Below, piece after piece: positions 19,561-50,394 of a stretch of 64,000 nucleotides of DNA (position 1 is the first letter of the stretch; every line of letters begins with the position of its first letter). Position numbers and translations under genes: made by a program. This DNA is from Modestobacter roseus (GTDB lineage: Bacteria; Actinomycetota; Actinomycetes; Mycobacteriales; Geodermatophilaceae): NCBI RefSeq assembly GCF_007994135.1, contig NZ_VLKF01000001.1:4402001-4466000 (forward strand), read 5' to 3'. The notes under the pieces are model-generated. The model had not been told where the DNA came from and searched no databases. It saw only the letters and a list, made by a program, of their open reading frames with translations.

Positions 19561-20225
19561 ACCGGCGCCCCGGCCGTGACGAGCCCGTCGCGCATCGACA
19601 GCACCCGGTCCGCGCGGGACCAGGCGATCTCGTCGTGGGTGGCGACCAGCACGGCGGCGCCGTCGTCGGCGGCGGCCCGGACGGCGTCGAGCAGCCGGTC
19701 GGCGTGGCCGCGGTCCTGGTGGGCGGTGGGCTCGTCGGCCAGCAGCACCGCCGGGCGCAGCAGCAGGGCCCGCGCCACCGCCACCCGCTGCTGCTCACCG
19801 AGGGAGGCCTGGTGCGGGTAGCGGTCGGCCAGGTGGTCCAGCCCGAAGCCGGCCAGCAGCGCGGCGGCCCGGGGCCCGTCGTCGGCCAGGGTGCCGCGCA
19901 GCCGGGCGGGCAGCAGCACGTTGTCGGCCAGGCTCAGGTCGGCGACCAGCCCGAGCGCCTGCGGCACCAGGGCCAGCTCCGGCCAGCCCAGCGCGTCCGG
20001 TCGCCGGCCGGCCAGGTCGCCGGCGTAGGTCAGCTGCCCGGCGTCGGCGGTCTCCCACCCGCACAGCAGCGCCAGCAGCGTCGACTTGCCCGACCCCGAG
20101 GGGCCGACCAGCGCGACGAACTCACCGGCGGCCACCGCCAGGTCGACCCCGGCCAGCGCGGCGACGCTCTCGGCGCCCCGCCGGTAGTGCTTGACCAGCC
20201 CGGTGCCGCGGAAGCCACCGCTCAC
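19557..20225 (-). CDS. ABC transporter ATP-binding protein (second of pair)
   Basis: The protein has 222 residues, with Walker A GPSGSGKST, Walker B VLLADEPTAHQD and H-loop LVATHDE. The signature is altered to SLGEQQ in place of LSGGQ. It is of the MacB/LolD size class and pairs with FtsX-type permeases. It overlaps its neighbours by four bases on each side, so stoichiometric synthesis with the other ATPase and the permease is likely. The weak signature hints that the pair may form an asymmetric ATPase heterodimer (inference). Confidence 0.88.
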   Translation of the reverse strand: MSGGFRGTGLVKHYRRGAESVAALAGVDLAVAAGEFVALVGPSGSGKSTLLALLCGWETADAGQLTYAGDLAGRRPDALGWPELALVPQALGLVADLSLADNVLLPARLRGTLADDGPRAAALLAGFGLDHLADRYPHQASLGEQQRVAVARALLLRPAVLLADEPTAHQDRGHADRLLDAVRAAADDGAAVLVATHDEIAWSRADRVLSMRDGLVTAGAPV

Positions 20226-34049: not shown

Positions 34050-34160
34050 CCGGCGTGTGAGCCAGCTCGCGGCGTGGTGGGGAAGGGCGTGCGGCCGGCG
34101 TCTGCTCCACTCTGCTGACGGCCCGGGGCGCCCGGGCCACCGTCGACCTGAGGAGGAGCC

Positions 34161-36041
34161 ATGACCGACGTGCTGCGCCGGACCGGCCTCTCCACCCCGG
34201 TCCGGCTGGCCATCGCCGAGATCGCCGGGGCCTCCGGCGCCTGGACCCCGGCGCTCGCGCCGACCGGCGACCGGATCGCCTACGTCAGCGACCGCTCCGG
34301 GCTGCCCCGGCTCGAGGTGGCCGCGCTGGACCAGCACACCCCGCCGGCGGTGCTGTCGGCCGCGGACGAGGAGGTCGTCTCGGTCGCCTGGTCACCGGAC
34401 GGCGAGTGGCTGGCCTACCTGGTCAGCCCGGGCGGGTCGATCTGCGCGCAGCTGTGGGCGGTGCGCCCGGACGGCACCGACCGGCACCTGGTCGCCGGGG
34501 AGGACCCGCGGGCGACCGTGCTCGCCGGTGGCTGGACGCTGCAGCCGGGCCACTACGTCTGCTCGATCGCCCCCGGCGACGGCCCGGACGCCGACGTGGT
34601 GCTGGTCGACGTGGTCAGCGGGGCGCACCGCACGCTGGCCCGCGGCGGGTTCCTCGCGGTGACCGCCGTCGCCGCCGACGAGCGCACCGTGCTGGCCCGC
34701 CGTGGCCCGCGCGGGCACCGGCACGTGGTCACCGTCGACGTCGCCACCGGCGTGCAGCGGCGGGTGATCCCGCTGGGTGCCCCCGGCGGCGCGGCCAGCG
34801 AGGACGGCCGGTTCGCCCTCGACGGCGCGGCGGTCTTCCTGCGCGCCGCGCTCCCGCCCCGGCCCGGCCTGCCGCGCAGCGACCGGACCGCGCTGCTGCG
34901 GGTGCCGCTGCACGGCGAGGACCGCCTCCCCGGGGACGCGGAGGTGCTCATCGCCCGTCCGGACGCCGACCTGGAGGCCTACGCCGTCCGGCTGGACGGC
35001 ACGGTCGTCTGCGTGTGGAACCGCGACGGCGTCACGCAGCTGGAGCTCCGCCGGGTTGCCGACGGTGGCCTGGTGCGGTCGGTGCCGCTGCCGGAGCCGG
35101 TCATGCCCGGCTGGTCGCTGGCCGCGGACGGGCGGACCCTGCTGGCCGAGCTGACCGGTCCGACGGCGCCCCGCGCCCTGTACCGGGTGTCGCTGGACGA
35201 GGAGACGGACGCGCCGGCCCCGTTGCCGTCCACCCCGCACTGGCCCGACCCGCGCCTGCTGGTCACCCCGGTGCGCCGGGAGTACCGGTCCGCCGACGGC
35301 ACCGAGCTCGACGGGTGGCTGTACACCCCGCCCGGCGTCGACGGGCCCAACCGGACCGTGGTCAGCTTCCACGGCGGGCCGGAGGGGCAGGAGCGGCCGG
35401 CGTTCTCCCCGCTCGCCCAGTCGCTGGTCGCCGCCGGGCTCACCGTGTTCGCCCCGAACGTGCGCGGCTCGGGCGGCCGCGGGCACGCGTTCATGGCCGC
35501 CGACGACCTGCACGCCCGCGAGGCGTCCTTCGCCGACGTCCCGGCCACCGTCGACCACCTGGTCACCAGCGGGATCGCGCTGCCCGGGCACGTCGGGGCC
35601 TACGGGTGGTCCTACGGCGGTTACCTCACCCTGGTCGCGCTCACCCGCTGGCCGGAGCTCTTCGCCACCGGCGTCACGCTGGCCGGGATGAGCGACCTGC
35701 GCACCTTCTTCGCCGGCACCGAGCCCTGGATGGCGGCGGCGTCGGTCACCGAGTACGGCGACCCGGTGACCGACCGGGACATGCTCGCCTCGATCTCGCC
35801 GATGACGATGCTGGACCGGCTGCGTGCCCCCGTGCTGCTCACCCACGGAGACCGGGACACCAACGTGCCGGTGCTGGAGTCCGTGCAGGCCCACCAGGCC
35901 CTCGCCGCCCGCCGCGCCGCCGACTGCGGCGCCCCCGCCGAACTGCTCCTCTTCCGGGGGGAGGGTCACACGATCGTGGGTCGGGAGAACGTGCTGCACC
36001 TGTCGGAGCGGGTCACCGAGTGGTTCGATCGCTGGCTGTGA
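34161..36041 (+). CDS. S9 family (prolyl oligopeptidase-like) peptidase
   Basis: The protein has 626 residues. An N-terminal beta-propeller-like region (WSPDGEWLAYLVSPGGS and similar repeats) is followed by an alpha/beta hydrolase domain with nucleophile YGWSYGGYLT (about residue 480), Asp in HGDRDTNVP and His in GEGHTIVG, the S9 triad. No signal peptide is seen, so it is cytoplasmic. ATG 34161 has GAGGAGGAG six bases upstream. It sits between the amidotransferase and the ATP-grasp ligase genes; cleavage of the peptide they make, or trimming of a precursor, is a reasonable inference. Confidence 0.88.
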   Translation: MTDVLRRTGLSTPVRLAIAEIAGASGAWTPALAPTGDRIAYVSDRSGLPRLEVAALDQHTPPAVLSAADEEVVSVAWSPDGEWLAYLVSPGGSICAQLWAVRPDGTDRHLVAGEDPRATVLAGGWTLQPGHYVCSIAPGDGPDADVVLVDVVSGAHRTLARGGFLAVTAVAADERTVLARRGPRGHRHVVTVDVATGVQRRVIPLGAPGGAASEDGRFALDGAAVFLRAALPPRPGLPRSDRTALLRVPLHGEDRLPGDAEVLIARPDADLEAYAVRLDGTVVCVWNRDGVTQLELRRVADGGLVRSVPLPEPVMPGWSLAADGRTLLAELTGPTAPRALYRVSLDEETDAPAPLPSTPHWPDPRLLVTPVRREYRSADGTELDGWLYTPPGVDGPNRTVVSFHGGPEGQERPAFSPLAQSLVAAGLTVFAPNVRGSGGRGHAFMAADDLHAREASFADVPATVDHLVTSGIALPGHVGAYGWSYGGYLTLVALTRWPELFATGVTLAGMSDLRTFFAGTEPWMAAASVTEYGDPVTDRDMLASISPMTMLDRLRAPVLLTHGDRDTNVPVLESVQAHQALAARRAADCGAPAELLLFRGEGHTIVGRENVLHLSERVTEWFDRWL

Positions 36042-36090
36042 GCTCCCCGCCGGTCAGCCCCCCGGCCGACCCCGCAGCAGACGACCGGCG

Positions 36091-37575
36091 ATGAGCGAGA
36101 CCGCGGGCGTCTTCGCGCGCTACCCGGGCTCCGCCACCGACGAGGCGGTCGACGCCGCCGGCCGCGTGCGCCCGGAGTGGTCCCCGGTGGCGCGCGTGCT
36201 CGACGAGCTCGGCGCCGGGGGGATCGCCGCCACCGCGGCCGCTACCGCCCAGGAGCGCGGGCTGCGCGGCGTCGTGCAGGGCAGCTGGCTGGACGGGCGG
36301 TTCACCGAGCGGCCGGTGCCGATGTGCCCGGTGCCGCGGCTGCTCCCGGCCGCCGACTGGGCGCACCTCGCGCGCGGGGTCGAGCAGCGCGCCCGCGCGC
36401 TGAACGCCTTCCTCGCCGACGTCTACCGCGCCGCCGGCCGACGGCGCAGCGACCCGGACGGCGGCCCGGAGGTGGTGCGCGCCGGCGTGGTGCCCGCCCG
36501 GCTGGTCACCGCCAGCCCCGGCCACCGCCCCGAGGCCGTGGCCCTGGGCACGCCGACCCGGGCCCGGGCCACCGTGCTGGCGTGCGACCTCGTCCAGGGC
36601 CCGGACGGCTGGGTGGTGCTCGCCGACGACGCGCGGATGCCGGTCGGCATCGGCTACGCGCTGGCCGACCGGGACAGCGGCCGGGCCGCGCTGCCGGACC
36701 TCTACGCCGACGCCGAGGCGCGCGGGCTGGCCGACCCGGCCGGGGCGGTCGCGCTGCTGCGGGCGGCCCTGGTCGAGGCGGCGCCCCCGGCGTGCAGCGG
36801 CGCTCCCGGGCTGGCGGTGCTCAGCGACGGGCCGGGCAGCACCAGCTGGTTCGAGCACCGGCTGCTCGCCGAGGCGCTGGGCGTGCCGCTGGCCACCCCG
36901 GACACCCTCTGGGCGACCCCGGCCGGCGGGGTCGCCGTCCAGGTGCGCGGGGAGCGGGTGCCGGTCGACGTGCTGTACCGGCGGGTGGACGAGAGCGAGC
37001 TGGCCGGCCACCTGACCGCCGGCGGCCCGCCGCTGGGCGTGCTGACCGGGCACGCGGTGCGGGCCGGCCGGCTCACCCTGGCCAACGTGCCGGGCAACGG
37101 CGTCGCGGACGACCCCGCACTGCACCGGTACGTGCCCGAGCTGATCCGCTTCTACCTGGCCGAGGAGCCGGTGCTGGCCGGCGTGCCCACCTGGTCACTG
37201 GCCGAGGACGCGCACCTGGCCCAGGTCCGCGACCGGCTGCACGAGCTGGTCGTGGTGCCGGTCGACGGCTACGGCGGGCAGGGCGTGGTGCACGGCCCGC
37301 GGTGCTCGGCGGCCGAGCTGGCCGAGTTGCACGCCGAGGTGGAGGCCGCACCCCACCGGTTCGTCGTCCGGGAGCCGGTCGAGCCCTCGACCGTGCCCAC
37401 CGTCGTCGACGGGACCGTGCGGCCGCGGCGGGCGGGCCTTCGGGTGTTCGCCGTCGCCGGGGCGGGCAGCACCCGGGTGCTGCCCGCCCCGCTCAGCCGG
37501 GTCGCGGCCGACGTGGACGGCCTGCCGGCCGACGACGACGCGGCCAGCAAGGACACCTGGGTCCTGCCCGGCTGA
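36091..37575 (+). CDS. Circularly permuted type 2 ATP-grasp ligase
   Basis: The protein has 494 residues and matches the CP_ATPgrasp_2 family: CPVPRLLPAADWAHLARGV and RALNAFLADVY near the start, YALADRD, PVDVLYRRVDE, YVPELIRFYLAEEPVL in the middle, and DTWVLPG at the end. These proteins are predicted peptide or amide ligases. The expected DNLRVPSG element is DDARMPVG here, so it is a divergent member. The alpha-E and transglutaminase partners often found beside this family are absent. It begins 49 bases after the peptidase stop; a reading from further upstream is open but not supported by a ribosome-binding site. Confidence 0.83.
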   Translation: MSETAGVFARYPGSATDEAVDAAGRVRPEWSPVARVLDELGAGGIAATAAATAQERGLRGVVQGSWLDGRFTERPVPMCPVPRLLPAADWAHLARGVEQRARALNAFLADVYRAAGRRRSDPDGGPEVVRAGVVPARLVTASPGHRPEAVALGTPTRARATVLACDLVQGPDGWVVLADDARMPVGIGYALADRDSGRAALPDLYADAEARGLADPAGAVALLRAALVEAAPPACSGAPGLAVLSDGPGSTSWFEHRLLAEALGVPLATPDTLWATPAGGVAVQVRGERVPVDVLYRRVDESELAGHLTAGGPPLGVLTGHAVRAGRLTLANVPGNGVADDPALHRYVPELIRFYLAEEPVLAGVPTWSLAEDAHLAQVRDRLHELVVVPVDGYGGQGVVHGPRCSAAELAELHAEVEAAPHRFVVREPVEPSTVPTVVDGTVRPRRAGLRVFAVAGAGSTRVLPAPLSRVAADVDGLPADDDAASKDTWVLPG

Positions 37576-37604
37576 CGCGGACGCCGGCGGCCGCGGGCGC
37601 GCCG

Positions 37605-38576
37605 TCAGAGGGGCTGCAGCCGGCGCCAGGCGGTCCAGGCGCTGGCGATCATGTCGGGCAGGCCCCGCCGCGCGCGGAACCCCAGCTCGCGCTCGATCCG
37701 GCCGACCGCGGCGACGACGCTCGCCGCGTCCCCGGGACGGCGGCCGGCCACGACCGGGGTGGTGTCGGCGCCGGTGACCTCGGCGACGACGCGCAGCACG
37801 TCGCGCACGCTGCAGCCGGCGCCGGTGCCCACGTTGTACGTGCCGCCGGCCGACCCCGCGGTCAGCGCCCGGGCGGCGGCCAGGTGCGCGGTGGCGACGT
37901 CGGCGACGTGCACGTAGTCCCGGACCCCGGTGCCGTCGGGGGTGGCGTGGTCGTCGCCGAACACCACCGGCGGCGTGCCGGCGTCGAGGGCGGCGAAGAC
38001 CATCGGCACCAGGTTGGCCGCACCGGTGTCGCCGAGCCGGGGTCGCGCGGCGCCGGCCACGTTGAAGTAGCGCAGCGAGGTGGCCGCCAGCCCGTAGGCG
38101 GTGGCGCAGTCGCGCAGCACCCACTCGCTGACCAGCTTGGTCTGCCCGTAGGGCGACAGCGGGCGGCACGGCGCGTCCTCGGTGACCGGGTCGGCGTCGG
38201 GTGCGCCGTAGACCGCGGCGCTGCTGGAGAAGACGAACCGGCCCACGCCCTTCGCCCGGCAGCTCTCCAGCAGCGCGACCAGCCCCTCGACGTTCTCCGC
38301 GAAGTACCGGAGGGGGTCGGCCACCGACTCCGCGACCGCCTTCTTGCCGGCCACGTGCACCACGCCCTGCACCGCGTGCTCGCGCAGCACCCGGCGCACC
38401 AGCCCGCGGTCCCGCACCGAGCCGACCACCAGGGGCACCCCGGGCAGCCCGTCGAGCCGGCCGGCGTCCCCGCTGGACAGGTCGTCGAGCACCACCACTG
38501 GTTCACCGGCGGCGGCCATCGCGTGCACCACGTGGGCGCCGATGTAGCCGGCGCCGCCGGTGACCAGCCAGGTCAC
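37605..38576 (-). CDS. galE: UDP-glucose 4-epimerase (last gene of the inositol/YcaO operon)
   Basis: The protein has 323 residues: Rossmann motif TGGAGYIGAH at the N-terminus, FSSSAAVYG with catalytic Ser, and YGQTK with the catalytic Tyr and Lys. FNVAGAARP and RDYVHVADVA are typical of GalE, which interconverts UDP-glucose and UDP-galactose (or their N-acetyl forms). GTG 38576 overlaps the PIG-L stop by four bases. In this operon it may supply the nucleotide sugar used by the GT4 glycosyltransferase two genes upstream. Confidence 0.88.
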   Translation of the reverse strand: MTWLVTGGAGYIGAHVVHAMAAAGEPVVVLDDLSSGDAGRLDGLPGVPLVVGSVRDRGLVRRVLREHAVQGVVHVAGKKAVAESVADPLRYFAENVEGLVALLESCRAKGVGRFVFSSSAAVYGAPDADPVTEDAPCRPLSPYGQTKLVSEWVLRDCATAYGLAATSLRYFNVAGAARPRLGDTGAANLVPMVFAALDAGTPPVVFGDDHATPDGTGVRDYVHVADVATAHLAAARALTAGSAGGTYNVGTGAGCSVRDVLRVVAEVTGADTTPVVAGRRPGDAASVVAAVGRIERELGFRARRGLPDMIASAWTAWRRLQPL

Positions 38577-39298
38577 GCCTGCACCGCCACCAGTTCCGGC
38601 GGCAGCGCCGCGAGCGCCGCCGGCCCGGCCAGCAGCACCTCCGGCAGGTCCGCGAGGGCGGTGCGCATGCCGGTCTCCCCGCCGAACTGGAAGCCCAGCT
38701 GGCTGCGGTAGCAGGCGCATGCCCCGGCCCGCCGCTCCGGCAGCTGCGGGAGCCGCACGGGCGACAGCCCGCCGGGCAGCGCCCCGCCGGGGACGGCGTC
38801 GGGCCGCCGCAGCACGTAGGGGCTGTCCCGCCACCACAGCGTCGGCCGGTCCAGCGCCGCCACCGCGCGCAGCACCTGCAGGTGGTCGACGTGGGCGCCC
38901 AGCCCCTGCGGCGCCAGCCACAGGTCGGCGTCCAAGCCGGCCAGCCGGTCGGCGACCTCGGTCCACACGTCGTCGCCGGGGTGCACGCCGGCGAACAGGT
39001 CCGGCGCGCTGGTGTAGCCGCGGTGCGGGGCCTCGGGCAGGTCCCAGTCGACCGCCGTCGCGCCGAGCACCGCCACCGCGGCGGCGTTCTCGATCCGGCG
39101 CAGCGCCAGGTAGTCGACGTCGGCCGGCAGCCCCTTGTCCAGCTGGCAGGCCAGCGCGAAGCCGGTCGGGTCGGGCACGCTGCGGGTGAAGCAGGTGACC
39201 ACGGTGACCTCGTGCCCCGCGTCGGCCAGTGCGGCGAGGGTCGCCCCGGCGGAGAAGGCGGCGTCGTCGAGGTGCGGGCTGACCGCGAGCACGCGCAT
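38573..39298 (-). CDS. PIG-L family deacetylase
   Basis: The protein has 241 residues. The metal-binding PHLDDA motif (residues 8-13) and the later AHVDHL are those of PIG-L/MshB enzymes, zinc-dependent N-deacetylases of N-acetylglucosamine conjugates, including the mycothiol precursor GlcNAc-inositol. ATG 39298 shares one base with the glycosyltransferase stop. Next to a GT4 enzyme and in an operon with an inositol phosphate synthase, de-N-acetylation of a glycosylated inositol-like product is a plausible role (inference). Confidence 0.87.
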   Translation of the reverse strand: MRVLAVSPHLDDAAFSAGATLAALADAGHEVTVVTCFTRSVPDPTGFALACQLDKGLPADVDYLALRRIENAAAVAVLGATAVDWDLPEAPHRGYTSAPDLFAGVHPGDDVWTEVADRLAGLDADLWLAPQGLGAHVDHLQVLRAVAALDRPTLWWRDSPYVLRRPDAVPGGALPGGLSPVRLPQLPERRAGACACYRSQLGFQFGGETGMRTALADLPEVLLAGPAALAALPPELVAVQA

Positions 39299-40506
39299 CA
39301 GAGCAGGTGCGCCGCGGACCGGAAGCGGCACGTCTCGTCCACCGTGGCGGGTGACGTCCAGTCCAGGTCCGGCGCGGTGCCGGCCAGCTCGGTGCAGACC
39401 TCGTCGATGCTGCGGGCGAGCACCGGCCAGGAGTACAGCCGGCGCACCTCCTCCAGCGCGGTGGTGGCCAGCCGGGTGCGCAGCGCGGCGTCGCCGAGCA
39501 GCCGGTCCAGCTCCTTGCGCAGGCCGGCGACGTCGCCCGGTTCGTGCAGCAGCCCGTTCTCCTCGTGCCGCAGGCAGTCGACGACGCCGACGCTGTCGGT
39601 GCTCACCGTGGGCAGCCCGCTGGCCATCGCCTCCAGCAGGGTGTTGCTGAACCCCTCGCTGTAGGTGGGGCTGACGAACACGTCCGCCGTGCGGTACACC
39701 GCGGGTGCCTCGTCCGGGGGCACGTAGCCGAGGAAGGTCGTGCGCCCGTCGGCGCGGGCCTTCGCCTCGTCCAGGTCCGGGCCGATGCCGGACACCACCA
39801 GCCGGACGCCGTCGGGCAGCGCCTCGAGCAGGTCGAGCACGCCCTTGCGCCGGTCGACCCGGCCGTGGAACAGCAGCACCGGCGGGTCGGCCAGGCTGCC
39901 CAGCGGCCGGTCGCCGGGGGTGAACCGGGTGGTGTCGGTCGCGCCCGGCACGATCGTGAACCGCGCCGGGTCGGTGCCCAGGTTGCCGACGACCTCGTCG
40001 CGGAAACTGGCGCTGCCGATCAGCACCGCTCCGGCGTGGTCGAGCACGGCGCGCATCGCGTCGGCGTGCGTGCTGCAGCAGGTGCCCACCCAGTGCCCGT
40101 CGCCGCCCTGGATGCTGACCAGGTTCGGCAGTCCGGTCCGCCGGGAGGCCTCCAGCACGGCCAGGCCGGGCGGGTAGCCGTACTGGGCGTGCAGCACGTC
40201 GAAGGGCCGCTGCTCGTGCAGCTCGACGACGGTGCGCACGATCTCGGCGATGTCGCCCTCCCAGTCGGCCGGGACGACGGTCTCGCCCCGGCTGGGCAGG
40301 GCGTGCACCTCGACGCCCGCGGGCACCCGGTCGGCCGGCGGCACGCCGCCGCCGTAGACCCGGGTGCCCGCCTCGTCGTCCCGGTACTGGCTGACCAGGG
40401 TGACCTCGTGGCCCAGCGCGACGAGCTCGCGGAGCAGGTTCTCCGCGTAGACGCTCATCCCGCTCACCGCGGGCCAGTAGCGGCGGCTGACGAAGCAGAT
40501 CCTCAT
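39298..40506 (-). CDS. GT4 family glycosyltransferase
   Basis: The protein has 402 residues with GT-B fold features: N-terminal YWPAVSGMSVYAENLLREL glycine-rich acceptor site and C-terminal nucleotide-sugar site SPTYSEGFSNTLLEAMASGL (the EX7E-like motif with both Glu). MshA and other GT4 enzymes use UDP-GlcNAc or UDP-hexoses. HAQYGYPPGLAVLEA and GTCCSTHADAM are unusual and cannot be assigned. It starts ten bases after the TIM-barrel stop; this is the only junction in the ten-gene operon with a gap. Confidence 0.88.
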   Translation of the reverse strand: MRICFVSRRYWPAVSGMSVYAENLLRELVALGHEVTLVSQYRDDEAGTRVYGGGVPPADRVPAGVEVHALPSRGETVVPADWEGDIAEIVRTVVELHEQRPFDVLHAQYGYPPGLAVLEASRRTGLPNLVSIQGGDGHWVGTCCSTHADAMRAVLDHAGAVLIGSASFRDEVVGNLGTDPARFTIVPGATDTTRFTPGDRPLGSLADPPVLLFHGRVDRRKGVLDLLEALPDGVRLVVSGIGPDLDEAKARADGRTTFLGYVPPDEAPAVYRTADVFVSPTYSEGFSNTLLEAMASGLPTVSTDSVGVVDCLRHEENGLLHEPGDVAGLRKELDRLLGDAALRTRLATTALEEVRRLYSWPVLARSIDEVCTELAGTAPDLDWTSPATVDETCRFRSAAHLL

Positions 40507-40516
40507 GACTCGTCCC

Positions 40517-41347
40517 TCATGACTCGGCCTTCCGCAACAGCTCGATGGAGCGGGGCACCAGCTGGTGCGCCCGGTGGCCGTCCCGCGAGAGCTCGAGGGT
40601 GACCAGCCGCTGGTAGTCGGCCGCCTGCAGCGCGGCCAGCACCGCGGGCAGGTCTACGTCGCCCTCGTCGAGCGGCAGGTGGTCGTGCACGCCGCGGCGC
40701 ATCCCCTCGACCGCGACCGTGCCCAGGCGGTCGGCGAAGGTCGCCACCGCCTGCTCGGGGGCGTACCGGCCGCTGACGACGCAGTGCCCGGTGTCCAGCG
40801 CCAGGGTCAGCCCCGGGACCTCGGCGGCCAGCCGCGCCCAGTCGTCGGCGTCCTCGACGAGCATCCCCGGCTCCGGCTCGACGGCCAGGTCGTAGGCGCG
40901 CCCACCGTGGCTGTCGACCAGGGCCCGGACGCCGTCGGCCAGCCAGCGCCACGCGTCGTCCCGGTCGACCCCCGGCTGCGGCACGCCGGCCCAGAAGCTC
41001 ACCGCCTCGGCCCGCAGCACCTCGGCGAGGTCGCAGGCCAGCCGCAGGTAGGCCAGCCGGCGGTGGCGGCCCTCGGCGCCGGGGTTGACCAGCGTGGGCT
41101 CGTGCTTGACCCGCGGGTCGAGCAGGAACCGGGCACCGGTCTCCACGACCACGTCCAGACCCAGGGCGTCGCAGCGCGCCCGCACCCGCTCGGCCTGGGC
41201 GAACGCGTCGTCGGCGAACGGGTCCAGGTGCACCACGTCGAGGGTGAGCGCCACCCCGGCGTAGCCGCAGTCGGCCAGGAAGGCCAGCGCGTCGTCCAGC
41301 CGGTGGGAGGTCAGCCCGTTGGTGTTGTAGGCGTACCGCAGGCTCAT
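40517..41347 (-). CDS. Sugar phosphate isomerase/epimerase-type TIM barrel
   Basis: The protein has 276 residues, a xylose-isomerase-like (AP endonuclease 2) TIM barrel. Metal ligands are likely in LAVEPEPGM (Glu), LALDTGHC (Asp, His), GMRRGVHDHLPLDEG (His) and LVTLELSRDG (Glu), the pattern of IolE, IolI and IolH-like enzymes. It is a dehydratase, isomerase or epimerase acting on inositol- or sugar-derived keto compounds by family. ATG 41347 overlaps the YcaO stop by four bases. Confidence 0.85.
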   Translation of the reverse strand: MSLRYAYNTNGLTSHRLDDALAFLADCGYAGVALTLDVVHLDPFADDAFAQAERVRARCDALGLDVVVETGARFLLDPRVKHEPTLVNPGAEGRHRRLAYLRLACDLAEVLRAEAVSFWAGVPQPGVDRDDAWRWLADGVRALVDSHGGRAYDLAVEPEPGMLVEDADDWARLAAEVPGLTLALDTGHCVVSGRYAPEQAVATFADRLGTVAVEGMRRGVHDHLPLDEGDVDLPAVLAALQAADYQRLVTLELSRDGHRAHQLVPRSIELLRKAES

Positions 41348-42792
41348 GACACGGCCCCGGCCGCCGTCGCCGCGACGTGCCGGCCCGGCTCCCGGTACAG
41401 CGCGTACAGCTCGCCCACCGCGCGGTCCGCGCCGGCCCGGTCGAACCAGGCCGGCCCGCCGAGGCGCTCTTCGGCCTCGGCGGTCAGGTGCACCCTCGCC
41501 CAGCCGCCCGGGTCGACGCCGACGGCGGCGAGCCCGGCACCGGGGCCGTCGCGCTCCAGCAGCCGTTGCACGCCGCGCTCGCCGATCCGGCCGTAGGACA
41601 TCGTCTCGGCCTCCAGCCCCGGCACCAGCACCTTCGCTCCGACCGCCTCGCCCTGCGAGGGCTGCAGGTCGACCAGCACGTCGAACCCGGCCGCGGTCAG
41701 CGTCCCGACGGGGTCGCCGCTGCCGGTGGGCAGGTCGGTCAGCGCCACGGTGCTGCGCTGGGCGAGCACCGAACCCCGCAGCAGGTCGACCAGCCGGTCG
41801 GTGCCCAGCCGGGTCCACGCCAGCATCGCCCGCAGCGCCCGGTCCTCCTCGACCATCCGCTCCGGCGGGTGCCCGCGCAGCCACTGGTCCAGGTAGCCCG
41901 GCGGGGTCGCGGCCGCGACGGCGTCCAGCGGGCCGTGCATGAACGCCTTCCGGCTGCGGGCGGCGGCGAACTCGAACAGCGCCTTGCGCACCGCGGCGTC
42001 CCGGTCGGCCGACGCCGCCTCGCCGCAGGCGGTGACCATCATCGGCGCCGGCTCCGAGCCGTCCCGCGAGCAGCCGACGGCGTAGACCGAGACGACGCCG
42101 TGCCCGGTGCTCGCCAGCTTGACCAGGACGTCGATGCCCGCGGCGTCCAGCCGGTCCAGCAGGGCGAGGGCGTCCGGGTCGCGCAGCCCGGCCAGGTCGA
42201 GCACCACGCCCTGGTCCAGCGCCCGGAAGGTGGTGACGTTGCCGTCGCGCTGCAGCAGCTCCAGCACCGCGTGGCCGACCGCCCGCTCGGCGTCGAACCC
42301 GGCGCCCTGCCCGTTGCTGATCACGGTGGTCAGCCAGCCGCCGGGCGGCGGGTCGCCGGGCAGCTCCTCCGGGGCGGAGACCACCAGCTCGGCGGGGACG
42401 AGCACCTGCTCGCCGTCCCGGGTGCGGCTCATCGGCAGCCACTGCAGCGGCCGGTCGTCGACGTAGTCGCTGCCGGCCTCGAGGCACAGCGTGCGCGGGT
42501 CGGCGACCCGGTCCCGGCCCTCGGTGCGGGCCAGCTCGCGGTAGGAGCCGTGCACCCGGTCGAGCCCGGCGTGCGCGCGGACGGACAGCGCCATCTCCGC
42601 CATCTCTCCCAGCGCCCCGGTGCGCGCCTCCTCCCGGGTGGCGCCGTAGCCCAGCCCGCTGCCGCCGGGGTGGTCCGGCGTCGAGGACAGGAACGCGCTG
42701 TGCAGCGGCACGTCGAGGACGTCCAGCCCCTCGATCGGGAACTCCTCGACGCCGGGCGGGAACGAGGCGAGGTACCGCTGGGCGGTGCTCAC
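41344..42792 (-). CDS. Stand-alone YcaO domain protein
   Basis: The protein has 482 residues. YcaO ATP-binding elements are visible: EMAEMALS (about residues 60-67), AVLELLQRDGNVTTF (about 165-180) and ALFEFAAARSRKAF (about 270). YcaO enzymes use ATP to activate amide carbonyls for cyclodehydration, thioamide or amidine formation, mostly on ribosomal peptides. Here there is no partner E1-like/ocin-ThiF gene, no TfuA gene and no precursor peptide in the operon, and no proline-rich YcaO C-terminus. It overlaps both neighbours by four bases. Substrate unknown; a small molecule is possible. Confidence 0.85.
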   Translation of the reverse strand: MSTAQRYLASFPPGVEEFPIEGLDVLDVPLHSAFLSSTPDHPGGSGLGYGATREEARTGALGEMAEMALSVRAHAGLDRVHGSYRELARTEGRDRVADPRTLCLEAGSDYVDDRPLQWLPMSRTRDGEQVLVPAELVVSAPEELPGDPPPGGWLTTVISNGQGAGFDAERAVGHAVLELLQRDGNVTTFRALDQGVVLDLAGLRDPDALALLDRLDAAGIDVLVKLASTGHGVVSVYAVGCSRDGSEPAPMMVTACGEAASADRDAAVRKALFEFAAARSRKAFMHGPLDAVAAATPPGYLDQWLRGHPPERMVEEDRALRAMLAWTRLGTDRLVDLLRGSVLAQRSTVALTDLPTGSGDPVGTLTAAGFDVLVDLQPSQGEAVGAKVLVPGLEAETMSYGRIGERGVQRLLERDGPGAGLAAVGVDPGGWARVHLTAEAEERLGGPAWFDRAGADRAVGELYALYREPGRHVAATAAGAVS

Positions 42793-43673
42793 AGCTCGGC
42801 CAGCGGGATCGGGGCGGCGTCCGGCCGGCGGGACAGCAGCCGCTGCACCAGGTGCACGACGTGGTCGGTGGTCACGCCCGGCACCAGCTCGAACGGGGTG
42901 GCGACGGCGCCGAAGTCCAGTTCGGCGACCACCGCCAGGTACTCCCGCAGCTCCCCGTGCGACAAGGGGATCTGCGCGTGGAACGCCTTGTGGGCGCTCA
43001 GGCCCACCGGTGCGCCGTCGCCGTCCAGGTCGACCTTCAGCGAGTCGCCGCAGAAGAGCACCCCGCGCCGGCTGTCGTGCAGCACCGAGTGGCCGGGGAA
43101 GTGCCCGCCGGTGCGGTGCAGGGTGAGGTCCGGCGCCAGCTCCAGCACGTCGTCGGCGGGCCAGGTGACCCGGAAGGCCTTGGTCCACTCCAGGTCGCGC
43201 ACCCCGACGCAGACGGTGCCCGGTTCCAGCTCCAGCTGCAGCTGCCACAGCGCGCCGTAGCCGTGCACGTGGCTGGCGGCCAGCACGTCGAACCCGCCCT
43301 TCTCGGCGGCCATCCGGCGCAGCTCGGCCAGCATCTCGGGCGTGTACCAGGGGGCGCACTCGAAGCCGACCAGCCCGGCGTCGGTCTCGATCACCCAGCC
43401 GCGGCTGTCCAGCCCGAACCGCGGCTCGGTGCCGAACTCGGTGACGCCGGCGACCGCGGTGGGCCGCCAGAACCCGGTGACCAGCTCGTCGGCCTGCTTG
43501 GGCGTCACGAACTCGAAGCCGTGCTCGGGCAGCGCGTTGCGCACGTCGGCGCAGACCGGGCACACCTGCGGGCCGGGCGCCGGCCAGCGCTGCCAGTGCC
43601 CGCAGTTGGTGCAGGCGAAGGCGGGCAGGTCGGGCAGCAGGCCGCGGTAGGGGTTGGTGTCGGGTGACGTCAC
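42789..43673 (-). CDS. MBL-fold metallo-hydrolase with N-terminal zinc ribbon
   Basis: The protein has 294 residues. Residues about 18-40 hold two CxxC pairs (CTNCGH and CPVC), a rubredoxin-like zinc ribbon. The MBL domain has GGHFPGHSVLH and LFCGDSLKVD, matching metal motifs 3 and 4, but the first motif reads ASHVHGYGALW, keeping HxH without the usual DH. It may bind one metal ion or have a changed activity. No close function can be named. GTG 43673 and the stop overlap the neighbouring genes by four bases each. Confidence 0.82.
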   Translation of the reverse strand: MTSPDTNPYRGLLPDLPAFACTNCGHWQRWPAPGPQVCPVCADVRNALPEHGFEFVTPKQADELVTGFWRPTAVAGVTEFGTEPRFGLDSRGWVIETDAGLVGFECAPWYTPEMLAELRRMAAEKGGFDVLAASHVHGYGALWQLQLELEPGTVCVGVRDLEWTKAFRVTWPADDVLELAPDLTLHRTGGHFPGHSVLHDSRRGVLFCGDSLKVDLDGDGAPVGLSAHKAFHAQIPLSHGELREYLAVVAELDFGAVATPFELVPGVTTDHVVHLVQRLLSRRPDAAPIPLAEL

Positions 43674-44674
43674 AGAGCAGCTCCGGTGCGGTCGGTGGCG
43701 GTGTCGAGGGCCTGCACGAGCAGGCGGTGCAGGGCGAGGTCGCGTGCGGCCGGGTACGGCCAGGGCGCCGTGCCGGCGACGGCGGCGCCGAACGCGGCGA
43801 ACTGGGCGGTGAAGGGGCCGGTGCCGGCGAACGGGACGTCGACCGGCTCGGGGCGGAACAGGGTGAGCGAGCCACCGGCGGTCTGGCCCATCGTGTCCAC
43901 GGCGACCGCGGTGCCCCGGGTGCCGACCACCTCCAGCCGGCGGCGGGGGAGGGCGTCGGGGCAGTTGTAGGCCACGTGCAGGTCGACCAGCACGCCGCCG
44001 GAGGTGCGGCCGATGAGCAGCGCGCCGTCGTCGACCGGGTAGGTCTGCACCCGGCGCTGCAGCAGTGCGGTGAGCTCGGCGACGTCCTCGCCGACCAGCA
44101 CCCCGGCCAGGTCCAGCCCGTGCGGGGCCAGGTCGATCGCGGCGCCGCCACCGGCCCGGGCCGGGTCGACGCGCCAGTTGTCGTGCGGCCTGCCGTCGGG
44201 CGACCAGTCGGCCGGCAGCCAGCAGCAGTAGACGACCCGGACGGCGGTGACCGTGCCGAGCTCGGGCACCAGCTCGCGCAGCCGCACGTGGGCCGGGTGC
44301 CAGCGCTGGTCGTAGGCGGTGCCGAGCAGCACGCCGGCCCGGTCGGCCGCGGCGACGACCGCTTCGGCGTCGGCGACGTCGGCGGCCAGCGGCTTCTCGC
44401 ACAGCACCGCCACACCCGCGCCGGCCGCGGCCTCGACGACCTGTCGGTGCGCGGAGTTGGGCACCGCCACGTAGACCGCGTCGAGCCCGGGCGTGGCGAG
44501 GAAGGCGGCCAGGTCGGTCGTCGCCCGGGGGCCGACGGGCATCCGGGACAGCGCCCCCGGGTCGCGGTCGTGCAGGGCGACCAGGCAGGCGCCGGGAACC
44601 TGGCGCAGGGCCGGGACGGCGTGGTCGCGGGCGACCCAGCCGCAGCCGGCCACCCCCCAGCCGACGCGGCTCAC
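43670..44674 (-). CDS. Gfo/Idh/MocA family oxidoreductase
   Basis: The protein has 334 residues: Rossmann motif GVAGCGWVARDH at the N-terminus, the family signature CEKPLA (about residue 92) and AAIDLAPHGLDLAGV with the catalytic Asp and His. Members include inositol 2-dehydrogenase and sugar dehydrogenases. In this operon, oxidation of an inositol or inositol-derived alcohol is a reasonable guess. Two GTG codons (44677 and 44674) stand together; 44674 gives the four-base overlap seen at the other junctions and is used here. Confidence 0.87.
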   Translation of the reverse strand: MSRVGWGVAGCGWVARDHAVPALRQVPGACLVALHDRDPGALSRMPVGPRATTDLAAFLATPGLDAVYVAVPNSAHRQVVEAAAGAGVAVLCEKPLAADVADAEAVVAAADRAGVLLGTAYDQRWHPAHVRLRELVPELGTVTAVRVVYCCWLPADWSPDGRPHDNWRVDPARAGGGAAIDLAPHGLDLAGVLVGEDVAELTALLQRRVQTYPVDDGALLIGRTSGGVLVDLHVAYNCPDALPRRRLEVVGTRGTAVAVDTMGQTAGGSLTLFRPEPVDVPFAGTGPFTAQFAAFGAAVAGTAPWPYPAARDLALHRLLVQALDTATDRTGAAL

Positions 44675-45729
44675 CACTGCTCCGGCAGGTCGACCAGCAG
44701 CCGCCGGCGGGCGGCGTCGGCGGGCAGCGGCTCGGGCCAGCGTTCCGGCAGGTGGCCCGACCGGGGGCCGTACTCGGCTTCGTACCGATCGCTGGGCCAG
44801 CGCAGCTCGCCGTCGACGTAGAGCGGGTTGGGGCGCAGCGGCCCGAGCGGCTCGCCGAGGTCGGCCGGCGCCGGGCCGCGCAGGTCACCGGCGACCAGGC
44901 CGATCGCCTCGCTGCCGGTCAGGTCCCCGGCCGCCGCCGGCCGGGGCTCGCGGCCCTCGAGCAGTGACCGGGTCAGCTCGGCGTCGTCGTAGAGCACCGT
45001 GGCGCCGAGCAGCCGGGCGTACTCCTGCGGGTCGAGCGGCTCACCGGCGGAGACGGTGTCGGCGACGTGCGCGTGCCCCACGACGACGGTGCCGCCCGGC
45101 CCGGCGAGCGCGCGCATCGCGGCCGCGGCGGCGGGCTTGTCGCGCAGGAAGTAGAACGCGTCGTGGCAGGTGACGTACGCCGGCCGGGCCACCTGCAGGT
45201 CCGGTGCGGCGGTCAGGTCGGCGCACACGTACCGGGCCTCGGGGCAGATGAACCGCTGGGCGAGCCACAGCTTGGCCCAGACGACGTCCAGGCCGAGCAG
45301 GTCGCGCACCCCGCGGCGGGACAGCTCGCGCAGCTGGGTGCCGATGCCGCAGGCGACGTCGACGACCGGTCGGTCGCCGGGCCAGTGCTGCCCGAGCAGG
45401 GCGAGCACGGCCAGGTGCGTGGGGTCGGACCAGCGGTGGGCGAAGTAGTCGCCCACCCGGCCCATGCCGAGCAGCGCCATCGCCTCCCGCAGCGTGGGTG
45501 CCGCCGGCACCCGGGCCAGCTGCTCGTCCGGCGGGGGCGGCTCGGGCCACCAGTCGTCGGCGTCGGCGAGCAGCGCCACCCGGGCCCGGTCGACGTCGCC
45601 GTCGGCGACCAGCCCGGCCACCCGGGCCTGCAGCTCCTCGCGCCCCGCGCGGGCGAACGGGATGCCGTCCACGACCGGGATGCCGGTCGCGGTGAGGCCC
45701 GTCGCCGCGTCCAGGCCGGCCGTGCTCAC
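44671..45729 (-). CDS. SAM-dependent methyltransferase
   Basis: The protein has 352 residues. Motif I is VVDVACGIGTQLRELS (about residue 120) and the post-motif strand is VCADLTAAP, a class I Rossmann methyltransferase; the N-terminal 110 residues and the C-terminal 120 residues are family-specific and not recognised. The acceptor could be O, N or C. GTG 45729 overlaps the HD-like gene stop by four bases. Confidence 0.8.
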   Translation of the reverse strand: MSTAGLDAATGLTATGIPVVDGIPFARAGREELQARVAGLVADGDVDRARVALLADADDWWPEPPPPDEQLARVPAAPTLREAMALLGMGRVGDYFAHRWSDPTHLAVLALLGQHWPGDRPVVDVACGIGTQLRELSRRGVRDLLGLDVVWAKLWLAQRFICPEARYVCADLTAAPDLQVARPAYVTCHDAFYFLRDKPAAAAAMRALAGPGGTVVVGHAHVADTVSAGEPLDPQEYARLLGATVLYDDAELTRSLLEGREPRPAAAGDLTGSEAIGLVAGDLRGPAPADLGEPLGPLRPNPLYVDGELRWPSDRYEAEYGPRSGHLPERWPEPLPADAARRRLLVDLPEQW

Positions 45730-46634
45730 AGCCCGGCCGCGGCGAGCACGTCGAGGTGGAAGGCCTGCACCGGCCCGGCGTGCACCAGCTCCAGGTCGTC
45801 CAGCGCCTGGCCGGCGGTGAACGCGGCGGCCCGCGCGTGGTGGTGCACCTGCAGCACCCGGTCGAGCACGTCGGCGGCGTGGAAGGCCTGCGACGCCGGC
45901 GCCACGGCGTCGCCCCGCAGCAGCAGCACCTCCCGCAGCCGGGCGGCCAGCGGTGCGGGCAGAGCGGTCAGCTCGCGCTCTTCCAGCGTGCCGATCACCC
46001 GGTCCAGCTGGTCGCCGAGCAGCACCTCGCCGGCGAACCCGGCGTCGGGCAGCACCACGTTGTGCAGGTGGTGGGCCAGCCCGACCAGGAAGGGGACGAC
46101 CGGGTCCGCACCCATCAGCGGCGCCAGCAAGGCGGCGTAGACGGCGACGGTGAAGCAGTGGTCGCCGTGGCTCTCCGGCGGTTCCACGACCACCCGCGGC
46201 TTCCCGGGCGCGGTGGCGCCGGCCCGCGGCTGGGCGTTGAGCGCCACCGCGAGGGGCGGGGGCGCGCCGGCTCCCCGCAGCCCCGGCAGCGCGGCCCGCA
46301 GCCGGCCGGCCAGCCCGCCGTCCAGCGCGCCGGCCACCTCGTCGAAGGCGCGCCGCAGCACCGCCTGCGCCTCGTCGGCGGAGAGCCCGGCCGCGGCCAG
46401 CACCGCGGCGTCGACGCCGGCCAGCCGGGCCCGGGCGACGGCGGCGGCGGTCTCCGACAGCGCCACCGTCCCGGCGTCCTCACCCGCGAGGAGCCGGGCC
46501 CAGGACCGGGCGAACGCCTGCTCGGCGAGCGACCCGGGTGCGCCCGCGGTTCGCACCCGCTTGGCGTCGCCGATCTCGGCCAGCAGCGGACGCAGCCCGC
46601 CGAGGGGTGCCGGCCCGGACGTCGTCGCCGTCAC
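45726..46634 (-). CDS. HD-like metalloprotein, possible hydrolase or oxygenase
   Basis: The protein has 302 residues. A histidine-rich core, HGDHCFTVAVY (about residue 145) and VGLAHHLHNVVLPDAGFAGE (about 170), followed by HAADVLDRVLQVHHHAR, resembles an HD-domain metal site, but the exact HD pair is not present as in standard phosphohydrolases. Options include a phosphatase acting on inositol phosphate or a diiron oxygenase like myo-inositol oxygenase, which has an HD fold. Position just after inositol-3-phosphate synthase is consistent with either. The start and the stop each overlap a neighbour by four bases. Confidence 0.68.
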   Translation of the reverse strand: MTATTSGPAPLGGLRPLLAEIGDAKRVRTAGAPGSLAEQAFARSWARLLAGEDAGTVALSETAAAVARARLAGVDAAVLAAAGLSADEAQAVLRRAFDEVAGALDGGLAGRLRAALPGLRGAGAPPPLAVALNAQPRAGATAPGKPRVVVEPPESHGDHCFTVAVYAALLAPLMGADPVVPFLVGLAHHLHNVVLPDAGFAGEVLLGDQLDRVIGTLEERELTALPAPLAARLREVLLLRGDAVAPASQAFHAADVLDRVLQVHHHARAAAFTAGQALDDLELVHAGPVQAFHLDVLAAAGL

Positions 46635-47881
46635 CGGGAGGCCGGGTCGGCGTCGCTCCCCGTCCGGTCGGCCCCGCTGGTCAACCAGTCCATCAACACG
46701 GACTCCTGCCGGTGCAGCGCGTGCTCGGGGGTGCTGCCGTCGGCGGTGATGGGGGCCTTGAAGAACCAGCCCAGGTGCCGCTGCACGCCGCCCTCGCCGC
46801 GCTGCTGGGCCAGGTCGACCAGCCGGACGATCTCCACGGCCAGCGGCGCGGCCAGGATCGAGTCCCGGCACTGGAAGTCGACCTTGATCTGCATCCGCTG
46901 GCCGAGGAAGCCGATCAGGTCGATCGCGTCCCAGGCCTCCTTCTGGTCACCGCGCGGCCGGTAGTAGTCGATCCGGACGACGTGGTCCTCGACCGGGTAG
47001 CCGAGGATCGAGTCCAGCACCTTCCCCTTGGTCTGCAGCTTGCTCTCCAGCGACGCCGGGTCGTCGAGGGCCAAGCCGTCGCGGTTGCCCAGGATGTTGG
47101 CGGAGTACCAGCCCTCGACGGTCAGCGCGCGGCTGCGGAAGGCCGGGGCCAGCACCGTCTTCATCATGGTCTGGCCGGTCTTGCCGTCCTTGCCCGCGAT
47201 CGGGACCGCGTGCCGCTCGGCCAGCTGGACCAGGGCCGGCACGTCGGCGGACAGGGACGGGGTGAAGTTCGCGTAGCCGACGCCTTCGACGATGGCCGCG
47301 TAGGCGTAGACCATCGACGGCGTGATGGCCCGGTCGTCGGCGTCCAGCCCGGCCTCGAAGGCCTCCGGCGTCTGCAGGCAGGCCGCCGCGGGGTCGGGCC
47401 AGCGCTCGGTGGAGGCGAGGTTGAGCAGCACCAGCCCGTCGAGCTGCTGCTCCTCGCGGAACCGGCGGAGGTCGGCGCGGACGGCGTCCACCTGGGCCCG
47501 CCGGCCCTCGGCCAGCACGACGTTGCCGCCGGTGACGTTGCGGCAGAAGTCGGCGTCGCCAGCGGCCGGCCACGGCGTGATGCCCGACAGCAGCGGCTCG
47601 GCCTGCTGCAGCTGGCGGGCGTCGAGCACGCCGTGCTGCTCGGCGGCCTTGTAGAGGTCGGAGGCGTCGAGGTCCCAGCCGCCGACGACCAGGTCGTCGT
47701 AGCCGGCGAGGCCGGTGGCCTCCTCCAGGGACCGGCCACCGACGGTCACCCCGGCGAGCGGGAGACCGTCGGCGCCCACGGCGCCGAGCCGGAGCAGCTC
47801 CAGCCCGGCCACCGCGGTGGTCGCGACGGCACCCCCGAGTCCGACGATGGCGGTTCCGACGCGGCGTGCGGGCTGCGGCAC
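46631..47881 (-). CDS. ino1: Inositol-3-phosphate synthase (first gene of the operon)
   Basis: The protein has 416 residues: NAD-binding GTAIVGLGGAVATTAVAGLE, LLNLASTERW, PIAGKDGKTGQTMMKTVLAP (catalytic lysines), WYSANILGNRDG and FQCRDSILAAPLA. This is the longer branch of MIPS and differs from the roughly 360-residue Ino1 used for phosphatidylinositol and mycothiol in actinobacteria. It converts glucose 6-phosphate to inositol 3-phosphate. GTG 47881 has GAGGAG seven bases upstream. Being first in a ten-gene overlapping operon it probably sets the precursor. Confidence 0.93.
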   Translation of the reverse strand: MPQPARRVGTAIVGLGGAVATTAVAGLELLRLGAVGADGLPLAGVTVGGRSLEEATGLAGYDDLVVGGWDLDASDLYKAAEQHGVLDARQLQQAEPLLSGITPWPAAGDADFCRNVTGGNVVLAEGRRAQVDAVRADLRRFREEQQLDGLVLLNLASTERWPDPAAACLQTPEAFEAGLDADDRAITPSMVYAYAAIVEGVGYANFTPSLSADVPALVQLAERHAVPIAGKDGKTGQTMMKTVLAPAFRSRALTVEGWYSANILGNRDGLALDDPASLESKLQTKGKVLDSILGYPVEDHVVRIDYYRPRGDQKEAWDAIDLIGFLGQRMQIKVDFQCRDSILAAPLAVEIVRLVDLAQQRGEGGVQRHLGWFFKAPITADGSTPEHALHRQESVLMDWLTSGADRTGSDADPASR

Positions 47882-47959
47882 GGGGTGCTCCTCGAGCTCA
47901 GTGCCCGGGTGGACTCCCCAGGCCTGAGACGACCCTCACGCGACCCCACAAGATGCGCG

Positions 47960-47984
47960 ACCAGAAGATGGCACACGATCTGGT
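47960..47984. promoter_or_regulatory. Inverted repeat upstream of the inositol/YcaO operon
   Basis: ACCAGA (47960-47965) and TCTGGT (47979-47984) form a perfect 6-bp inverted repeat with 13 bases between, about 80 bases before the operon start in a locally AT-richer stretch. Two AAGATG boxes lie at 47950 and 47965. A regulator site is possible; no regulator gene is in the operon. Confidence 0.35.
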
Positions 47985-48068
47985 TGCTGCGCCGACACGC
48001 CGTAGAGCGCCCGGGACACGCCGTCGCCGTTCACCTGGACGTCTCCGGCCGCGGCGGGCGCCGCGGGG

Positions 48069-50394
<2,326 letters not shown>

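Follow-up and report, generated by a model that had tools for sequence, protein, structure and literature searches.

A Nine-Gene Operon Conserved Across Phyla, with a Possible Role in Cyclitol-Hexosamine Biosynthesis

The Locus

Ten open reading frames (ORFs) are packed together on the minus strand of a 64,000-nucleotide stretch of the 4.5-Mb Modestobacter roseus genome (contig NZ_VLKF01000001.1, positions 4,402,001 to 4,466,000; hereafter “the window”), where their positions, 37605-47881, were checked (Table 1). The original prediction, made from the letters of the window, had described these as one ten-gene operon for an inositol-derived glycoside. Its gene order matches the ORF coordinates exactly, and its junction count is equally exact: there are seven overlaps of 4 bases (ino1-HD, HD-MT, MT-Gfo, Gfo-MBL, MBL-YcaO, YcaO-TIM, and PIG-L-GalE), one of a single base between GT4 and PIG-L (39298), and a gap of 10 bases between TIM and GT4. 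Although all ten genes are packed in this way in the window, the conserved unit consists of nine, namely ino1, HD, MT (methyltransferase), Gfo, MBL (metallo-beta-lactamase fold), YcaO, TIM (TIM barrel), GT4, and PIG-L, and the epimerase gene GalE is an extra in Modestobacter. We conclude with high confidence that these nine genes, which together span about 9.3 kb, form one dedicated pathway.

Table 1. Genes of the operon, the conserved block upstream of it, and loci flanked by an epimerase gene
Feature	Position	Strand	Description
ino1	46631-47881	-	myo-inositol-1-phosphate (inositol-3-phosphate) synthase; first in transcription order
HD	45726-46634	-	HD-fold protein; conserved H159, H188, H189, N192, D255
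MT	44671-45729	-	class I S-adenosylmethionine-dependent methyltransferase; absent at some loci
Gfo	43670-44674	-	Gfo/Idh/MocA oxidoreductase; conserved EKP and D181/H185
MBL	42789-43673	-	metallo-beta-lactamase fold; N-terminal four-cysteine zinc-ribbon-like motif
YcaO	41344-42792	-	YcaO-domain protein; acidic and QRD positions retained
TIM	40517-41347	-	xylose-isomerase-like TIM barrel; plausible metal site E157/D185/H223/E252
GT4	39298-40506	-	GT4 glycosyltransferase; E284-x7-E292 retained
PIG-L	38573-39298	-	PIG-L family N-deacetylase; H9/D11/D12/H136/D138/H139 retained
GalE	37605-38576	-	UDP-hexose 4-epimerase; tenth gene, operon member only in Modestobacter
Upstream block CCATCTTCTGGTCGC	47957-47971	-	5' of ino1; conserved in Modestobacter; possible control site
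Epimerase-flanked loci	window 37605-38576; L034, L040, L041, L043, L044, L047-L051, L062, L074, L082, L084, L090

Conservation of the Unit

Conservation was assessed at 58 named loci, obtained from a contig scan with MBL alignment that used two MBL peptide patterns. This is a biased sample; because the scan relied on MBL patterns, loci of the Methylobacterium type, without MBL, could not appear in it. The presence of each gene was judged by tblastn with the corresponding window protein, and at several loci with incomplete gene calls (e.g., L121, L127, L128, and L131) presence rests on tblastn. The closest named loci are those of Modestobacter.

The complete order ino1-HD-MT-Gfo-MBL-YcaO-TIM-GT4-PIG-L, on one strand, was found by tblastn at 40 of the 58 loci. 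Within these 40, the start codon overlaps the previous stop by 4 bases at 271 of 320 junctions, and since the overlap stays in frame so often, the gene packing is not chance. The original prediction would have been undermined by genes scattered in close relatives; they stay together, and the search for conserved neighborhoods that it proposed finds the nine-gene order recurring across genera and phyla.

Among the 18 incomplete loci, L039, L048, L060, L063, L065, L072, L087, and L092 meet the end of their contig inside the set or next to it. In Actinomycetospora the set stops after YcaO at six loci (L068, L071, L073, L078, L081, and L093). No TIM gene lies inside the operon at Kineococcus loci L064 and L070 (or at the cut L063); both L064 and L070 are without ino1 at the site, and L064 is also without MT. 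At L061 the MBL gene overlaps TIM directly, with no YcaO in between. In Goekera (L022/L059), ino1 was not found at the L059 site, which is where it was looked for.

Genes that have left the operon offer a further view of its coherence. Of the 8 genomes checked, all 8 retain YcaO. In one, the Frankineae metagenome-assembled genome (MAG) of L061, it is outside the operon, as a 61% identical copy on another contig. That second contig also has a further ino1-HD-MT stretch, with YcaO ∼7 kb upstream of it (L132:8349-9869 and 17008-19900), so this MAG may have two copies or be a mixture. The two Actinomycetospora genomes checked have TIM-GT4-PIG-L as a block of its own, separate from ino1-HD-MT-Gfo-MBL-YcaO and ∼15 kb from YcaO in one of them (L133:451-3399 and 18831-19901; L134:9688-12639). 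These blocks adjoin regulator-like genes (IclR-like by eye), and apparent diiron monooxygenase genes are close by. Two Kineococcus genomes carry a TIM gene of 37% identity in divergent orientation, adjoining the cluster.

Across at most 24 taxa, the pairwise distances measured for the nine proteins show correlations of 0.78-0.93, values that are inflated by shared ancestry and have no control gene beside them. YcaO and MT are among the least conserved of the nine, each with a mean pairwise identity of 0.55, and the position of YcaO is variable. The YcaO of a Pseudonocardia MAG (L087:4351-5916) is 76% identical to that of the window and 50% identical to that of Pseudonocardia oceani (L075), whereas P. 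oceani is the closer relative for the six other proteins in the comparison; it seems that YcaO was exchanged inside the operon there, or that the contig is chimeric. Standalone YcaO homologues also exist (G025 and G052; 44-49% by tblastn; L023:9658-11070 and L024:9489-10934), in unrelated surroundings, and none of the other eight genes was found in those two genomes. Similarly, an MBL match of 35% in another genome (G219) was set aside, with no cluster around it.

Spread Across Genomes and Phyla

Genome searches began with a fast prefilter, and for HD no more than 5 or 6 candidates were scored in each genome; the HD counts of 7/396 and 2/337 that follow are therefore lower bounds. In a class-wide sample, 6 of 296 genomes match MBL at E ≤ 1e-20: the genome of the window, four with all nine genes (the order of TIM and YcaO being swapped in two), and one with an unrelated MBL. 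In a phylum-wide sample, at least 7 of 396 genomes match HD, comprising the window's own genome and six from one family outside its class, within which 6 of 39 genomes match. That family belongs to another class of the phylum, and at five of its six loci all nine genes are present with their order unchanged. The remaining locus reads ino1-HD-Gfo-MBL-YcaO-TIM on a contig of 7.6 kb that breaks off in TIM, and it has no MT.

The unit is also found on plasmids, where HD is carried by 4 of 72,556 records. The Roseomonas haemaphysalidis plasmid has all nine genes, annotated, followed by mdoH and two spore-photoproduct-lyase-family genes (L126:18042-20792). Those of Methylobacterium aquaticum and M. 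bullatum have eight, MBL not being found, and that of Hymenobacter volaticus (Bacteroidota) has eight, MT not being found. On the Hymenobacter plasmid (L127:10579-16079), Gfo and GT4 are each in two pieces, through sequencing error or decay. An Acetobacteraceae MAG holds all nine genes over two contigs (L092, L135, and L143), and within its class at least 2 of 337 genomes match HD, namely the MAG itself and one M. bullatum-like locus without MBL.

A nine- or eight-gene set thus occurs in Actinomycetota, Alphaproteobacteria, and Bacteroidota, amid surrounding genes that differ; presence in three phyla within such different neighborhoods indicates transfer as a unit. The carriers are diverse bacteria of soil, leaves, and air; Streptomyces and Micromonospora are among those in the 58 named loci. 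Closer to the window, 11 of 59 relatives carry HD, and a YcaO of ≥74% identity is found in exactly these 11. Seven other relatives have weaker YcaO matches, and none of the seven has HD. Only 8 of 23 genomes in the genus, the window's own included, have the set, which is therefore accessory.

The Encoded Proteins

Pfam confirms the family of 9 of the 10 proteins, the exception being the HD protein of this genome. Ino1 contains both Pfam domains of myo-inositol-phosphate synthase (NAD_binding_5, 216 bits), and K375, which aligns with the catalytic Lys mutated to Ala in PDB 3qvx, is invariant in 17 sequences. The solved structure nearest to its profile is 7nwr (385.5 bits), which we take to be a Bacteroides enzyme of inositol-lipid synthesis, with 6k96 at 66.3 bits and 1gr0 at 48.5 bits. 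On the scores of 6k96 versus 7nwr, a five-membered-cyclitol-phosphate synthase identity was rejected. Operon Ino1 is accordingly placed in the myo-inositol-phosphate synthase family, and its activity is predicted from that placement. The housekeeping INO1, of the mycothiol type, is encoded elsewhere in the genome (693.8 bits against a cut-off of 638), which makes the operon gene a second copy. Three Kineococcus genomes have only distant Ino1 matches (27-28%, compared with 66-67% in Micromonospora and Streptomyces searched alongside), an indication that the ordinary supply of inositol phosphate is probably enough.

Pfam finds no family for this genome's HD protein, but PF13023 (HD_3) is matched at E ≤ 0.1 by 18 of the 21 orthologues in the alignment. 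In an AlphaFold2 model (mean predicted local distance difference test score 86.0), residues 124-302 align with HD phosphohydrolases, and the predicted fold is of the YfbR/HDDC2 type, also resembling OxsA. MT matches Methyltransf_25 (32 bits) and, among solved structures, has only weak matches. Gfo has 2glx as its best solved match (170.1 bits), with EKP and D181/H185 invariant in 19 sequences. In MBL the four Cys and HxH are retained and the usual second-site D-H is replaced by Y/F-G. TIM belongs to AP_endonuc_2 (118.2 bits), with 9zmu, an IolE, as best solved match (47.7 bits); no relevant literature was found for a further PDB match, Art22.

YcaO, from an enzyme family best known for acting on peptides and proteins, scores 165.4 bits against the Pfam YcaO model, and its nearest solved structure is MJ1094 (6pe3, 77.3 bits). 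The acidic positions, presumably those of the ATP site, and the QRD positions are conserved in the sequences checked. For GT4 the best solved matches are 6kih (126.7 bits), 3c4q (109.5), 5d00 (BshA, 104.1), and 4n9w (PimA, 98.9), the nearest types being sucrose-phosphate synthase, MshA, BshA, and PimA. An E-x7-E motif in the C-terminal domain is a hallmark of this family, and both residues, E284 and E292, are invariant in 17 sequences. PIG-L (Pfam PIG-L, 50.6 bits) is nearest among solved structures to glycopeptide sugar deacetylases such as Dbv21 (3dfi, 104.1 bits). The metal motifs of its family are H-x-D-D and H-x-D-H; they are represented by H9, D11, D12, H136, D138, and H139, invariant in 17 sequences.

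Comparison with Known Systems

Membership in a known system was judged by TIGR model scores against each model's cut-off. Among the closest parallels is the opening of mycothiol synthesis (Ino1, MshA, and MshB), with which the operon shares an inositol-phosphate synthase, a related GT4, a PIG-L deacetylase, and the logic of a deacetylated hexosaminyl-inositol. The operon enzymes nevertheless fall below all of the mycothiol models, and the genome has its separate mycothiol-type Ino1: operon Ino1 scores 38.2 against 638 bits (TIGR03450), GT4 64.2 against 462.5 (MshA, TIGR03449), and PIG-L 17.6 against 224.35 (MshB, TIGR03445) and 25 against 277.15 (Mca, TIGR03446). To our knowledge, the mycothiol pathway has no counterparts of Gfo, TIM, MT, MBL, HD, or YcaO.

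A mycothiol-style thiol, thioamide, or redox compound, in which Ino1, GT4, and PIG-L would make a glucosaminyl-inositol to which YcaO adds sulfur, is one alternative. It would fit a GT4 close to the MshA and BshA types and a YcaO whose nearest solved relative is MJ1094. That YcaO reaches 60.5 bits with the model for McrA-glycine thioamidation (TIGR03266), far from the cut-off of 365, and scores higher, though again below cut-off, with the SagD model (77.5 bits). Furthermore, the ten genes include none for a sulfur donor, a cysteine ligase, or a TfuA-like protein, and Gfo and TIM would be left without a role. We regard this alternative as quite unlikely.

YcaO clusters are usually read as azole peptide clusters, as in two papers in PubMed Central (PMC8776678 and PMC3848822), and the Pfam score of the operon protein is consistent with such a ribosomally synthesized and post-translationally modified peptide (RiPP) pathway. 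Here YcaO would act on a precursor peptide, giving it an azoline, thioamide, or amidine, and the sugar genes would decorate that peptide. Against the SagD model for thiazole/oxazole-modified microcins (TIGR03604), YcaO has 77.5 bits where 219.25 are required. It resembles the YcaO proteins of RiPP and McrA systems in its domain and its conserved ATP-site acidic residues, and differs from them in that no precursor peptide was found, no partner protein accompanies it, and the SagD and methan_mark_1 cut-offs are not reached. Because the genes overlap, there is no space for a precursor inside the operon. Among ORFs of ≥20 residues in the 1.5-kb flanks of 18 loci there were 78 cross-genus matches, and epimerases alone are shared by more than two genus labels; the survey covered these flanks, not other-frame ORFs over the nine genes or distant precursors. 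Nothing found therefore points to a peptide substrate, and a RiPP seems to us as improbable as the thiol.

Very unlikely, in our view, is a glycolipid or envelope glycan, with a hexosaminyl-cyclitol as head group or polysaccharide cap. Such a product could be argued from PimA among the GT4 relatives, from 7nwr as the closest Ino1 structure, and from the mdoH gene that adjoins the Roseomonas copy. However, neither the unit nor any flank family present in three or more lineages supplies a phosphatidyltransferase, flippase, or polymerase, and we know of no role for Gfo, TIM, or YcaO in glycolipid or envelope glycan pathways. The flank survey, of 25 representative loci and families in at least three lineages, likewise gave no transporter or regulator common to the loci. 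Beyond the core it returned overlapping or antisense frames (judged from the members shown), the epimerase, and one generic sensor-like family (L032, L066, and L070).

Two other systems share parts with the operon. Inositol catabolism (IolG, IolE, and IolI) also has a Gfo/Idh dehydrogenase next to an AP_endonuc_2 TIM barrel, whereas the operon would make inositol and end in glycosylation, and its proteins do not reach the IolG (TIGR04380; 83.1 against 355 bits) or IolE (TIGR04379; 25.2 against 290 bits) models. Aminocyclitol antibiotics of the fortimicin or kasugamycin type have an inositol-derived ring, a dehydrogenase, a glycosyltransferase, a deacetylase, and a methyltransferase, but the unit has no cyclitol aminotransferase, resistance gene, or exporter and is found in three phyla. 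An aminocyclitol antibiotic cluster was rejected on the same ground, the neighboring aminotransferase being SerC.

The original prediction knew of no described pathway with this combination of genes, and no identical cluster with an assigned product was found in the literature searched. No description of the nine-gene cluster was found in the open-license PMC literature, which is not proof of absence, and the covered parts of PMC9664959, PMC13276223, PMC8776678, PMC3848822, and PMC9290621 do not describe it. One Roseomonas mucosa cluster that includes a YcaO gene is noted in PMC8776678 and may or may not be the nine-gene set.

A Proposed Pathway

We propose that the unit is a self-contained, horizontally spread operon, probably for one small N-deacetylated hexosaminyl-cyclitol that is likely to be intracellular. 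Such a pathway would begin much as mycothiol synthesis does, with ring-modifying enzymes and YcaO added. What stands of the original interpretation is a coordinated set that starts with an inositol-phosphate synthase and ends with GT4 and an N-deacetylase; ten as the size of the unit does not stand. More tentatively, and at slightly less than even odds, we suggest a cyclitol-hexosamine pathway shared by at least three phyla in which YcaO activates an amide or a vinylogous acid on a sugar-like small molecule, without any peptide or protein substrate. The product of this YcaO-containing pathway is possibly a UV-absorbing protective compound, a thioamide, or an amidine.

In outline, a dedicated Ino1 would supply inositol 3-phosphate, and HD may strip the phosphate or act on the cyclitol. 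Gfo would oxidize the ring, the TIM barrel would isomerize or dehydrate it, and in most, not all, lineages MT would methylate it. Judging from their nearest relatives, GT4 may attach an N-acetylhexosamine, from which PIG-L would take off the acetyl group; the sugar may be galacto-configured where an epimerase gene is linked. YcaO, with ATP, would activate the amide or vinylogous acid of a non-peptide molecule, and MBL may be its helper in most lineages. The order of steps, the methylation, and the roles of YcaO, MBL, and HD are what we infer from the gene set.

A special case of this hexosaminyl-cyclitol pathway deserves separate mention, namely an ultraviolet (UV)-absorbing stress protectant. 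Gfo and TIM would yield a dehydrated diketone, MT a methoxy-enol whose enol oxygen YcaO would phosphorylate, and an amine would displace the phosphate. The resulting chromophore, similar to gadusol or a mycosporine, would then be glycosylated. The carriers include Geodermatophilus, Kineococcus, Methylobacterium, and airborne Hymenobacter, all groups exposed to sun or desiccation, although soil Streptomyces and Micromonospora carry the set too. Two spore-photoproduct-lyase-family genes adjoin the Roseomonas copy, and IolE is the best solved match of the TIM profile, but the TIM protein scores only 25.2 bits against the 290-bit IolE cut-off. MT is missing at three loci. Methylobacteria produce UV-absorbing compounds, including methylobamine, and the covered part of the source states no link to the cluster (PMC9664959).

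If the UV reading holds, the operon would share with mycosporine-like amino acid clusters a methyltransferase and an ATP-using condensation on a cyclitol-like ring, with the difference that the ring would derive from inositol. The markers of those clusters are a 3-dehydroquinate (DHQ)-synthase-like cyclase and an ATP-grasp ligase; neither is among the ten genes, and assignment to such a cluster was rejected. As a whole, we consider the UV special case unlikely.

It is important to set out what weighs against the hexosaminyl-cyclitol pathway itself. YcaO is its least explained step, as the only obvious amide substrate is the N-acetyl group, which PIG-L would take away. The HD family, unlike HDDC2, YfbR, and OxsA, reads HH for the HD-type metal pair and Asn for the following Glu, invariantly in 21 aligned and 10 further sequences. 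That Glu has a catalytic role, in agreement with the titles of E72A mutant structures among the matches, and with two expected active-site positions conservedly changed, phosphate removal by this protein is a guess. Searched for at the loci only, MT is absent at the Hymenobacter, Kineococcus TRM81007, and G516 loci, and MBL was not found at the Methylobacterium loci. The matches of Gfo, TIM, and MT are too general to fix a substrate, and the enzyme activities and product class suggested here follow from family membership.

If YcaO does act on a sugar or cyclitol, the step would be new in kind and would bring YcaO chemistry into carbohydrate metabolism. A compact set, shared across phyla and present in cultivable organisms, makes the range of YcaO substrates testable. 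The presumed precursor, inositol, can be labeled, and the natural variants without MT, MBL, or a dedicated Ino1 serve as single-step comparisons. Should the product prove to be a stress protectant, it would account for some of the chemistry of bacteria from deserts, rocks, and leaves.

Epimerases, Control Region, and Neighboring Genes

The operon GalE is a clear member of its family (TIGR01179; 336.4 bits, cut-off 262.3), and another GalE is encoded elsewhere in the genome (381.9 bits). Epimerase-family genes lie near the unit at 18 of the 58 loci, plus L034, in more than one arrangement: within the operon in Modestobacter, downstream and mostly convergent in Geodermatophilus (where GalE is absent from the operon) and Blastococcus, and divergent upstream of ino1 in Micromonospora and L034. 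This recurrence beside the unit hints at a galacto-configured sugar.

Upstream of ino1, CCATCTTCTGGTCGC is a possible operator or promoter element. Its core, CATCTTCTGGTCGC, is present in the window and in five of the six other Modestobacter-group upstream regions compared, and not in the upstream regions of other genera compared. ARAGORN found no transfer RNA in the window, and no Rfam family was detected at gathering thresholds in 37300-49400.

On the same strand, serC and gltA lie upstream of the ten-gene block. SerC (627.1 bits against a cut-off of 401.65) is 187 bases from ino1, and at the majority of Geodermatophilus loci serC does not lie close to the unit. A convergent three-gene run (32265-37575) faces the other end of the block and encodes an N-acetylglutaminylglutamine amidotransferase (TIGR03104; 974.3 bits, cut-off 570.1), which is an osmolyte-type gene, an S9 peptidase, and a circularly permuted ATP-grasp protein. 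The last of these (36091-37575) is common only to Modestobacter and one Geodermatophilus strain. The run is kept in all seven other Modestobacter-group loci compared (L013-L019), and the S9 peptidase and ATP-grasp genes are also found at L020/L054.

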